Origin: Waterburya agarophytonicola KI4
GTDB taxonomy: Bacteria > Cyanobacteriota > Cyanobacteriia > Cyanobacteriales > Xenococcaceae
DNA length: 64,000 bases
Reading direction: 5' to 3'
NCBI RefSeq assembly: GCF_020640915.1
Contig: NZ_JADWDC010000001.1
Span: 1 to 64,000, forward strand
Part shown: in pieces, positions 15,906 to 19,191 of the stretch
How the letters are laid out: each line of letters starts with the position of its first letter
Position numbering within the stretch: position 1 is the first letter of the stretch
Program-made: the position numbers and the translations under genes
The notes under the pieces: model-generated
What the model was told of the DNA's origin: nothing
Seen by the model: only the letters and a program-made list of their open reading frames with translations
The model's database searches: none

Positions 15906-17663
15906 ATGATTAATATTTTAATTGTCGACGATCAAAAAAGTGTACGCGCCAGACTCGAATACTTAGTACAATCGGTGACAGATTTTAACGTAATTGGCAT
16001 TGCCGAAAATGGCTCAGATGCGATCGCTCAAGTGCAAGTATTACAGCCTGATATTGTCTTGCTAGATATGGAATTGCCTGAAATTAGTGGTTTAATGGTA
16101 ACAAAGCTAATTTCCAAAGACTTTCCCAACATCAAAATATTAGTATTGAGCAGTCACGACAAACAAGAATATGTGAGTCAATCAATGTCAGCAGGAGCAA
16201 CGGGATATTTACTCAAAGGTTCACCTGACGAAGAAATCGAACAAGCTATTCGATTTGTATCCAAGGGCTGCACTCATTTCGGTGCTGGATTATTTGCCAA
16301 AATGTTACCCATAGTAGAGGATCATTCTTCATCCCTCGACTTAGTTATTGAAGAAGAGCTAACTCTAGATTCGTCTTTTCTAGCTATCCCGTCTACAGTA
16401 GAAAAAACTCCAACCAAAACAACTTCGCAAAAAAAACAAATATTGGCTTGGTTAATCGTTACTATTAGTTTGACTGCGGGAATATATACTTTTCGTCAGT
16501 GGCTGAGACAACCTTTACCTGCATTGAGTCATACTCAACAATCTGACAATATAGCAACTACCGAGTTTAGCGGGAAATTAGTACCAGCAAAAACTTTTAA
16601 AATAGGAGCGATCGATCTTGGAATAATCGATAATGTATACGTGCAGGTAGGAGACAAAGTAGAAATCGGTCAACCTTTATTAACTCTCAAAAACCTATCC
16701 GCAGAAGCCCAGAAAAAACAAATAATTCAAGAACAGCAACTTACCAAACAACAGCAACAAACAGTACTGCAACAGCAACAAACAGCCCAACAAAGACTAT
16801 TAGAGCTAGATCGACAAATAGATCGCCTCAAATATAATTTAGCCCCTCTCAAAGCCAAAATTGCCCAGGCTAACCTACAAGTATCTTTAGCCAAAAGTGA
16901 TGCGGATAAACTTCCTCTACGCCAACGCCAAGACTCCGTACCTAGAACCAAAGCTGTCTATCAAAGATCTCAAGCTCACTTTAATCGTTTATCCGATTTA
17001 TATCAACAGGGTGCAATTTCCCTAGAAAAACTAGAACAAGCCCAGTCAGAACTAGAGATCGCCAAGTTAGACTATGATATGGCGATCGCCGCAGCAGCAG
17101 CCAATGCAGAATTAGCCCAAAACCAAAGAACATTATCTCAATTACAAGAAAAACTAGCTCTCCAAGAACAAGAAGATGCGATCGCATCCTTAGAAAAGCA
17201 GAAGCAGACTGCTAGATTAGAATATCAACAAGCGGAATCCAAATTAGCACTATTGCGCCAACAAGCAACCCAACTAAACAAATACCAAGTTCCTGAAATT
17301 CATAAGGTAATCAAAGCCACCGAGGCGGGAATTGTGGCAAAATTGCCCGTGACAGAAGGAGAACAAATTTATAGTGGTAATACCGTAGTCGAACTAGCCA
17401 AACTAGAGCAACTCAAAATTACCATTCCCGTTAACGCTCGTCTGATTAATGCCCTATCTCTCGAACAAGCAGCAATAATTAAATTAGGTTCGGGAGTGAC
17501 AGCCCAAAAATTTGAGGGTAAAATTACGACTGTAAATCCGTTACCCACCGAAAAATTGAATTATTTAGTTGAAGTGGAATTTACCAACTCGACTGATGAA
17601 TTATTAGTCGGTCAATTAGCTCGGGTACAGTTTATGCCTCAGACAATTGCTGGAGGAAAATAA
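15906..17663 (+). CDS. Response-regulator receiver fused to HlyD-type membrane-fusion protein
   Basis: Residues ~1-125 are a CheY-like receiver: VDD at 7-9, phospho-acceptor D54 in IVLLDMELPEISG, LSS near 82, and Lys in YLLKGS near 104. No DNA-binding domain follows. Instead a linker leads to one membrane segment (ILAWLIVTISLTAGIYTF, ~181-198). Then comes an HlyD-type adaptor: half-lipoyl (IDNVYVQVGDKVEIGQPLL), a long Gln/Ala-rich coiled coil (~255-460), the second half-lipoyl (TEAGIVAKLPVTEGEQI) and a beta-barrel end. The receiver is cytosolic and the adaptor is outside the membrane. The PelF-type gene follows 2 bases later. It may make export respond to a sensor kinase; that is inference. 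Confidence 0.9.
   Translation: MINILIVDDQKSVRARLEYLVQSVTDFNVIGIAENGSDAIAQVQVLQPDIVLLDMELPEISGLMVTKLISKDFPNIKILVLSSHDKQEYVSQSMSAGATGYLLKGSPDEEIEQAIRFVSKGCTHFGAGLFAKMLPIVEDHSSSLDLVIEEELTLDSSFLAIPSTVEKTPTKTTSQKKQILAWLIVTISLTAGIYTFRQWLRQPLPALSHTQQSDNIATTEFSGKLVPAKTFKIGAIDLGIIDNVYVQVGDKVEIGQPLLTLKNLSAEAQKKQIIQEQQLTKQQQQTVLQQQQTAQQRLLELDRQIDRLKYNLAPLKAKIAQANLQVSLAKSDADKLPLRQRQDSVPRTKAVYQRSQAHFNRLSDLYQQGAISLEKLEQAQSELEIAKLDYDMAIAAAAANAELAQNQRTLSQLQEKLALQEQEDAIASLEKQKQTARLEYQQAESKLALLRQQATQLNKYQVPEIHKVIKATEAGIVAKLPVTEGEQIYSGNTVVELAKLEQLKITIPVNARLINALSLEQAAIIKLGSGVTAQKFEGKITTVNPLPTEKLNYLVEVEFTNSTDELLVGQLARVQFMPQTIAGGK
17652..17656 (+). promoter_or_regulatory. Shine-Dalgarno that supports the TTG start of the PelF-type gene
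   Basis: GGAGG lies inside the last codons of the receiver-HlyD gene, 9 bases before the TTG at 17666. No ATG is available at this position and the protein begins with the family's LLTTEGTYPF block right after the TTG. This indicates translational coupling of the two genes. Confidence 0.75.
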
Positions 17664-17665
17664 AT

Positions 17666-19147
17666 TTGGCTAGACCTTGCGTACTCCTTACTACAGAAGG
17701 AACTTATCCTTTTGCTAAAGGGGGAGTGAGTACTTGGTGTCATGTTTTAACTCAACAGTTACCAGAAATCGATTTTAAACTTCTGGCTGTGGTAGCAAAT
17801 CCCTATCAGGAAATTCGCTATGAGTTAAGTCCAAATGTTTTGGAAGTATCAAAAATCCCCTTATGGGGTATGGACGATCCAGTAGAATATAGCTGGCGAT
17901 CGCCTTTTTCCTCCGCGCTTCATAGCAAACAAGGAGTCACTCCCAATCTGATTAAACAGACTTTTCTTCCTTTATGGTCATCCTTTTTACGTTCCATTCT
18001 GAGTGCAGAAGTAGAAGCCAAATCTTTAGGGAAATTGATTCTCTCTCTCCACAAATATTTCTTAGTTTATGACTACCACAAGACGATGAATTCTTCTTGG
18101 GTTTGGTCGACTTACAAACATCTAGCCTGGGACTATTGTCAACAAGAAGATCTAACTGGAGTCACCTTAACCGAATTAACCGAAGTGATGCGCTTGCTAT
18201 ATCGGTTTTTAATTACTATTCATCTCCCCGTACCAGAAACCGATCTTACCCACTCTTCCGCAGCAGCTTTTTGCGGACTTCCTTGTGTAATTGCCAAACT
18301 GCAACGGGGTACTCCCTATCTACTTACGGAACATGGTATTAATATCCGCGAGCAATATCTGAACCTCAATCAAAATATCCCTTCGTTATATGTGCGTAAG
18401 TTTCTCTATCGCCTGATGGGTGCAGTGGTTAAAGTAAACTTCCACTATGCCGACCTAATCTCTCCTGTATGCGAGTTTAACGCTCGTTGGGAAAGATGGT
18501 GGGGAGTTCCTCCAGAAAAGATTAAAGTGATTTATAACGGTGCAGATCCAGAGAAATTTCACCCTACCCCACCCATAAAAAAAGAACGCCCCCAAGTAAT
18601 GAATATGGGGTTAATCTTTCCTCTCAAGGGTCAATTAGATTTAATTAAAGCCTCTATAATAGTTCGCGAACAAATTCCCGATGTGGAGTTTATTTTTTAT
18701 GGCAAAGCTTCCGATGAAAACTATTTTGCTCAATGCGAAGCATTAGTTAAAGAACATAAATTAGAAAATACCATCAACTTTGCTGGCTTTACGAGCGAAC
18801 CCTGGCGAGCCTATAGCGAAGCCGATGTAGTAGCCATGGCAAGTATTTCTGAGGGATTTCCTTTTGCTATTATTGAAGCCATGCTTAGTCGAGCAACTAT
18901 TGTTTCTACTGATGTGGGGGGAGTCCGCGAAGCGATCGCCGATACGGGTTTGTTAGTTCGCGCCAGTCGTTCCGAACAAATGGCAGAGGCTATTTTAAAG
19001 TTATTATTAATGGATGAAAAAGAGCGATCACAATACGGTGAAAAAGCCTTAGAACGTTCTTTGAAATTGTTTACTCAAGAGACTTTTTTAGCTGAACATA
19101 GAGAAGTCTATGACAAACTTTTAAATAGTTCTGCTTTATCACTGTGA
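17666..19147 (+). CDS. PelF-type GT4 glycosyltransferase
   Basis: 493 residues. The N-terminal half (PCVLLTTEGTYPFAKGGVS, WCHVLTQQLPEIDFKLLAVV) is the DUF3492 domain that marks PelF. The C-terminal half is a GT-B donor-binding domain with KVIYNGADPEKF, FAGFTSEPWRAYSEADVV and the E-x7-E-like SISEGFPFAIIEAM. PelF proteins are cytosolic transferases that polymerise hexosamine for Pel exopolysaccharide from UDP-sugars. It starts with TTG, 2 bases after the receiver-HlyD stop. No PelG, PelD or PelE is in the window. The sugar made is unknown. Confidence 0.88.
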   Translation: MARPCVLLTTEGTYPFAKGGVSTWCHVLTQQLPEIDFKLLAVVANPYQEIRYELSPNVLEVSKIPLWGMDDPVEYSWRSPFSSALHSKQGVTPNLIKQTFLPLWSSFLRSILSAEVEAKSLGKLILSLHKYFLVYDYHKTMNSSWVWSTYKHLAWDYCQQEDLTGVTLTELTEVMRLLYRFLITIHLPVPETDLTHSSAAAFCGLPCVIAKLQRGTPYLLTEHGINIREQYLNLNQNIPSLYVRKFLYRLMGAVVKVNFHYADLISPVCEFNARWERWWGVPPEKIKVIYNGADPEKFHPTPPIKKERPQVMNMGLIFPLKGQLDLIKASIIVREQIPDVEFIFYGKASDENYFAQCEALVKEHKLENTINFAGFTSEPWRAYSEADVVAMASISEGFPFAIIEAMLSRATIVSTDVGGVREAIADTGLLVRASRSEQMAEAILKLLLMDEKERSQYGEKALERSLKLFTQETFLAEHREVYDKLLNSSALSL

Positions 19148-19156
19148 CCTATTTAA

Positions 19157-19191
19157 AAAATAACCACAACAACAAGTATTATGGTTATTTT
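19157..19191 (+). terminator. Terminator of the receiver-HlyD/PelF operon
   Basis: AAAATAACCA (19157-19166) pairs with TGGTTATTTT (19182-19191), a perfect 10-bp stem with a 15-base loop, just after the PelF-type stop and followed by T-rich sequence. Confidence 0.7.

Follow-up and report, generated by a model that had tools for sequence, protein, structure and literature searches.

The known outputs of response regulators are mainly transcriptional or enzymatic. Among the closest described exopolysaccharide systems, those of the Pel type (pelABCDEFG in P. aeruginosa, pelDEADAFG in Gram-positive bacteria) make a partly de-acetylated alpha-1,4-GalNAc polymer (PMC9135694), and in B. cereus Pel production requires the binding of c-di-GMP to PelD (PMC7112168). 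In fungi, the galactosaminogalactan (GAG) cluster of Neurospora comprises an epimerase, a synthase, a deacetylase and hydrolases of families GH135 and GH114 (PMC11356417); the endo-galactosaminidase families are GH135, GH114 and GH166 (PMC12054363).

Here we describe a locus within a 64,000-nucleotide stretch of the Waterburya agarophytonicola KI4 genome (the window, meaning the whole stretch analysed) in which a receiver domain is fused to a periplasmic export adaptor and translationally coupled to a PelF-type glycosyltransferase. The window DNA is cyanobacterial, as it carries 74 copies of GCGATCGC, which we take to be the cyanobacterial repeat HIP1, where 0.3 would be expected. No cognate kinase is encoded beside the adaptor-pelF pair within the window. 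The features of the locus are as follows:

15906..17663, + strand: receiver-transmembrane-periplasmic adaptor fusion of 585 aa, ATG start, single uninterrupted frame (Pfam, hydropathy, orthologues)
15915..16253, + strand: receiver (REC) domain of NarL type, residues 4-116 (Pfam Response_reg, 3e-25)
16065..16067, + strand: codon of the putative phospho-acceptor D54 (sequence, alignment)
16437..16493, + strand: single transmembrane helix, residues 178-196 (hydropathy scan)
16674..17330, + strand: periplasmic alpha-helical coiled-coil hairpin, residues ~257-475 (single-sequence AlphaFold2 model)
17121..17612, + strand: HlyD_D23/HlyD_3 match covering the second lipoyl half and beta-barrel, residues 406-569 (Pfam)
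17652..17656, + strand: GGAGG Shine-Dalgarno of pelF, within the 3' end of the adaptor gene (sequence; conserved in L037-L040)
17666..19147, + strand: PelF-type GT4 glycosyltransferase of 493 aa, TTG start, EX7E motif at E396/E404 (NCBIfam, Pfam)
19157..19191, + strand: A+T-rich 10-bp inverted repeat, possible weak terminator (fold of -7.6 kcal/mol)

The original prediction had read the first gene as one protein in which a receiver with an acidic pocket and a phosphorylatable D54 precedes a single membrane helix and an HlyD coiled-coil adaptor, and this architecture is borne out. The full set of phosphorylation residues (D8, D9, D54, S82 and K104) is intact in alignment, and a search of solved structures returned the receivers of VraR, NarL and DesR as the closest. 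The window receiver therefore shares with NarL-type response regulators both its type and its intact phospho-residues, but differs from them in having a membrane export adaptor as its output instead of a DNA-binding domain. In support of the adaptor assignment, the C-terminal part matches HlyD_D23 (1e-13) and HlyD_3 (5e-9) in Pfam, and the features of an HlyD-superfamily adaptor (transmembrane helix, lipoyl halves, coiled-coil hairpin and beta-barrel) were all found by Pfam, hydropathy or modelling, the AlphaFold2 model being confident for the hairpin alone (pLDDT ~90) and poor over the remainder. RND_mfp, type I HlyD and DevB adaptors possess the same N-terminal helix, lipoyl motif halves, helical hairpin and beta-barrel, whereas the N-terminal receiver sets the window protein apart from all three. 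The name HlyD thus holds for the superfamily and not for the type I secretion subfamily: the adaptor scores 39.8 bits against the type I profile (TIGR01843, cut-off 208.65) and comes nearer to the RND type, its best-scoring subfamily, at 92.1 bits (TIGR01730, marginally under the cut-off of 94.9), while falling under the cut-off of every adaptor subfamily profile compared.

The second gene is equally well defined. Its product reaches 144.2 bits against an NCBIfam PelF equivalog cut-off of 100, its N-domain is DUF3492 (Pfam, 7e-43), and the EX7E glutamates are invariant between the window protein and the PelF proteins of Deinococcus, Streptomyces and proteobacteria. As anticipated, pelF begins 2 bases behind the adaptor stop codon and has its Shine-Dalgarno within the adaptor gene, and this junction (GGAGG, 2-base gap, TTG or GTG start) is kept in all four close orthologues. 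A 10-bp terminator had also been proposed to close the pair; the inverted repeat is real (arms at 19157-19166 and 19182-19191), although termination is unproven, with two G-C pairs, a 15-base loop and no call for the repeat in a terminator scan.

Whole-protein orthologues of the adaptor were found in four of 40 relatives (G008, G013, G016 and G020), at 60-67% identity over the full length, every one of them with the receiver and with PelF directly behind. A further relative, G009, holds an adaptor fragment at a contig end; the fragment is adjoined (L041) by a relative of the L017 protein, one of the receiver proteins of the window genome described below. In a sample of 390 genomes drawn from the whole class (389 besides that of the window, with a few best candidates scored per genome), the adaptor search returned three further strong matches, two weak matches at 27% identity being set aside. 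One of the three, G283, belongs to the same order but another family and encodes a receiver-adaptor followed by PelF; the other two, G406 and G271, lie in the same class outside the order and encode adaptors of 419 and 415 aa that lack a receiver, again followed by PelF. The fused architecture thus has PelF behind it in every complete fused orthologue found (G008, G013, G016, G020 and G283). That the receiver and HlyD parts are two genes joined by an annotation or assembly error is ruled out by the conserved frame, which recurs as a single frame in five other genomes, including four where the contig exceeds 4.5 Mb; we found nothing in favour of such an artefact and consider it vanishingly improbable.

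In the adaptor tree, the receiver-bearing forms group together (92/97), with the unfused forms and unfused distant outgroups falling outside; the six fused-protein receivers also group in their own tree, weakly (84/62). Because G406 and G271 possess the adaptor, PelF and the membrane protein discussed below without a receiver, the receiver was probably gained once in the PelF-linked adaptor lineage, and the adaptor tree fits one such gain. The same unfused adaptors accompany the same genes, so the receiver is, judging from gene content, dispensable to the core machine.

Indeed, the system extends beyond the adaptor-PelF pair. In G013, G020 and G008, the fused adaptor and PelF are followed in order by a polytopic protein of 513-523 aa and a Spherulin4 lipoprotein; the window genome encodes a 513-aa membrane protein (69% identity) and a Spherulin4 (65%) on other contigs. 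Furthermore, searches of the class-wide sample with the adaptor, PelF and a profile of the 513-aa protein returned the identical three of the 389 other genomes (G283, G406 and G271), with a Fisher p of 1e-7 per pair, a value that ignores shared ancestry and the two weak adaptor matches. Within the cluster, the adaptor-PelF link is the tightest, with a spacing of 2-8 bases or an overlap. The conserved linkage and the co-occurrence therefore give strong support to the exopolysaccharide context and adaptor-PelF coupling originally suggested. Two components of the wider set are placed as follows:

L049:8151-9692, - strand: 513-aa polytopic protein without a Pfam family, of a family tied to this PelF clade
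L066:816-5885 and L057:13717-18642, + strand: RTX-repeat proteins of 1641-1689 aa with a weak polysaccharide-deacetylase match, beside the cluster

The 513-aa protein is a conserved polytopic protein of ~10 helices with no meaningful match among PDB sequences, and the N-terminal part of its family is common to Deinococcus, Streptomyces and Thermus proteins encoded after pelF (hhalign probability 96%). We considered whether it could be a divergent PelG and rejected this, with an hhalign probability of 0.2% and no PF16933 match. The cluster Spherulin4 matches its GH135 family at 6e-53 and matches the solved Sph3 structures 5d6t and 5c5g in sequence. A galE gene is present in the G008, G283, G406 and G271 loci and GH114 in that of G406, and glmM, glmS, a YvcK/CofD protein and a 611-631 aa membrane protein are also nearby in various members, of which glmS, glmM and yvcK may be housekeeping neighbours. 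A large protein with the weak deacetylase match is encoded near the cluster in G008, G020, G283, G271 and G406, with RTX repeats in two of these genomes. A plasmid search with either the adaptor or the 513-aa protein gave no matches. Separately, in G283 the 513-aa gene is divided between two frames (L066:7246-8792, + strand), and in G271 it is broken, as is PelF (L058:4712-7795, + strand), reflecting decay or sequencing errors.

How, then, does this gene set compare with known systems? Like Pel systems, the cyanobacterial one has PelF, in relatives a polytopic membrane partner next to it, an endo-galactosaminidase-type hydrolase and, in some relatives, galE nearby. Unlike them, it has no PelG (PF16933) match over cut-off anywhere in the eight cluster genomes; PelB, PelC, PelD and PelE were not seen among the scanned neighbouring genes, and no outer-membrane channel was identified in the cluster. 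The hydrolase is of GH135 type instead of GH166, and the pelF-linked gene encodes a periplasmic adaptor with a receiver. Given the unmatched PF16933 and the negative profile comparison of the 513-aa family with true PelG, the system is, by its gene content, not a canonical pel operon. Fungal GAG synthase differs in architecture from the cyanobacterial PelF system, but the Sph3-like GH135 of GAG clusters recurs in the cyanobacterial loci, the epimerase and GH114 in those of some relatives, and Agd3-like deacetylases occur in their bacterial relatives; neither adaptor nor receiver features in the fungal cluster as described (PMC11356417). Also comparable are plasmid-borne pelF loci of Deinococcus, Thermus and Streptomyces (L072, L078 and L073), in which pelF is followed by the related membrane protein, although no receiver-adaptor protein was seen in them. 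Between them, these loci encode an epimerase, Spherulin4, GH114 and an Agd3-type deacetylase, the enzyme set of the Neurospora GAG cluster. In one, on a Streptomyces californicus plasmid (L073:4959-11404, + strand), pelF, the membrane protein, the epimerase, Spherulin4 and GH114 are clustered in a galactosaminan-like arrangement. From the Spherulin4-Sph3 match, the galactosaminidase families, the Pel and GAG precedents and the plasmid loci, we infer the identity of the product, and these point to an alpha-1,4-galactosamine polymer of the Pel/galactosaminogalactan type.

Beyond this locus, scanning the contigs of the window genome with the whole fusion returned other receivers and nothing else. 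The window genome also fuses similar receivers to other proteins, among them two further adaptor families:

L009:7428-9674, + strand: receiver-HlyD fusion of another adaptor family, 748 aa
L021:3810-5726, - strand: receiver-HlyD fusion of a further adaptor family, 638 aa, near a C39-peptidase ABC exporter gene
L024:4540-6225, - strand: receiver-MFS transporter fusion in one 561-aa protein (Pfam Response_reg 7e-22, MFS_1 1e-46)
L010:10013-11920, + strand: receiver fused to a two-helix coiled-coil membrane protein, in an exopolysaccharide gene cluster
L020:4804-5955, + strand: receiver-ferric-reductase-like membrane domain fusion
L013:4111-5130, + strand: receiver-BON domain fusion, phospho-Asp replaced by N

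In addition, eight proteins (L011, L014, L015, L016, L017, L018, L019 and L022) combine a receiver with a middle part that is coiled-coil or of low complexity and with a membrane helix at the C-terminus, and no recognised DNA-binding domain was found in any of them. For the L010 paralogue, the two-helix topology and an exopolysaccharide neighbourhood suggested a Wzz-like identity; this has no profile support, and the C-terminal part of the protein has no profile match. Among the loci compared, adaptors of the L021 type bear a receiver in the window genome only, and those of the L009 type in the window genome, in G011 of the same genus and in G201 of another family. Most homologues of both elsewhere lack a receiver, so receivers appear, by this distribution, to have joined adaptors on more than one occasion. 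Perhaps this lineage has repeatedly joined NarL-type receivers to membrane proteins (three adaptor families, the MFS transporter, the ferric-reductase-like protein and the tail-anchored proteins), giving a class of response regulators whose output is direct control of transport and surface-polymer export, with the receiver replacing c-di-GMP and PelD in a Pel-like system; we offer this broader reading tentatively, as possible but short of even chances.

The explanation that we favour for the locus as a whole, with about even confidence, is a dispersed exopolysaccharide system in which the receiver serves as a two-component input on the adaptor. At the inner membrane, PelF, partnered by the ~10-helix protein in place of PelG, would polymerise UDP-GalNAc or a related UDP-amino sugar. 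The HlyD-like adaptor would then move the chain through the periplasm to an outer-membrane channel, in place of PelB and PelC, and the Spherulin4/GH135 lipoprotein would trim the polymer in the manner of PelA and fungal Sph3. Lying at the cytosolic end of an adaptor translationally coupled to PelF, the receiver is the natural candidate for an input: D54 would receive its phosphate from an unlinked histidine kinase, receiver dimerisation or contact with PelF would be altered, and the altered state would switch synthesis or export on or off. Such a post-translational input would do the job of c-di-GMP binding by PelD in known Pel systems, and sugar export may be the direct target of the two-component signal, with no step through gene expression.

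Several observations weigh against this explanation: the unfused adaptors of G406 and G271, the lack of a kinase gene beside the pair in the window and of an outer-membrane channel in the cluster, the location of the membrane protein and GH135 on other contigs of the window genome, and the absence of a PelG profile match for the membrane protein. At odds with a phosphorylation input in particular is the G016 orthologue, in which D9P and D54N substitutions have removed two of the key residues, yet the full receiver is kept at ~59% identity. This is what would be expected under the main rival, in which the receiver is a pseudo-receiver that works as a phosphorylation-independent assembly or localisation module, dimerising the adaptor or docking it onto PelF or the membrane protein, with the Asp chemistry incidental. 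The near-invariance, in the five close orthologues, of a segment that follows the active site (SAGATGYLLKG..EEIEQAIRFV.KG.TH.GAGL) likewise favours docking. On the other hand, the five other complete fusions retain all the phospho-residues, D8 being replaced by E in G283, and D54 is kept in nearly all other membrane-linked receivers of the window genome, the BON fusion alone having N. We therefore think the docking alternative unlikely, if worth serious consideration. Because of the G016 substitutions, phosphorylation gating would in any case not be universal, at least one lineage doing without the chemistry.

It is also conceivable that the adaptor belongs to an exporter of proteins or small molecules, for instance in type 1 secretion of the large RTX protein, with PelF a mere neighbour. 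The recurrence of that large protein near the cluster in five genomes, beside galE in relatives, and the best adaptor score being for RND_mfp would agree with this. However, neither an ABC nor an RND transporter turned up in the loci of the cluster, and both the tightness of the adaptor-PelF link and the exact co-occurrence of the two in the class-wide sample speak against it, making this role improbable.

Neither a receiver acting on an export adaptor nor a PelG-less cyanobacterial Pel/galactosaminan-type system is described in the literature that we searched, which included few subscription papers. On the favoured reading of a two-component input to a dispersed exopolysaccharide system, the cluster would represent a cyanobacterial Pel/galactosaminan-type system without PelG, in which a membrane protein and an adaptor replace the known transport parts. 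If the receiver does act on the export adaptor, matrix secretion could be adjusted by two-component signalling with no need for fresh transcription.
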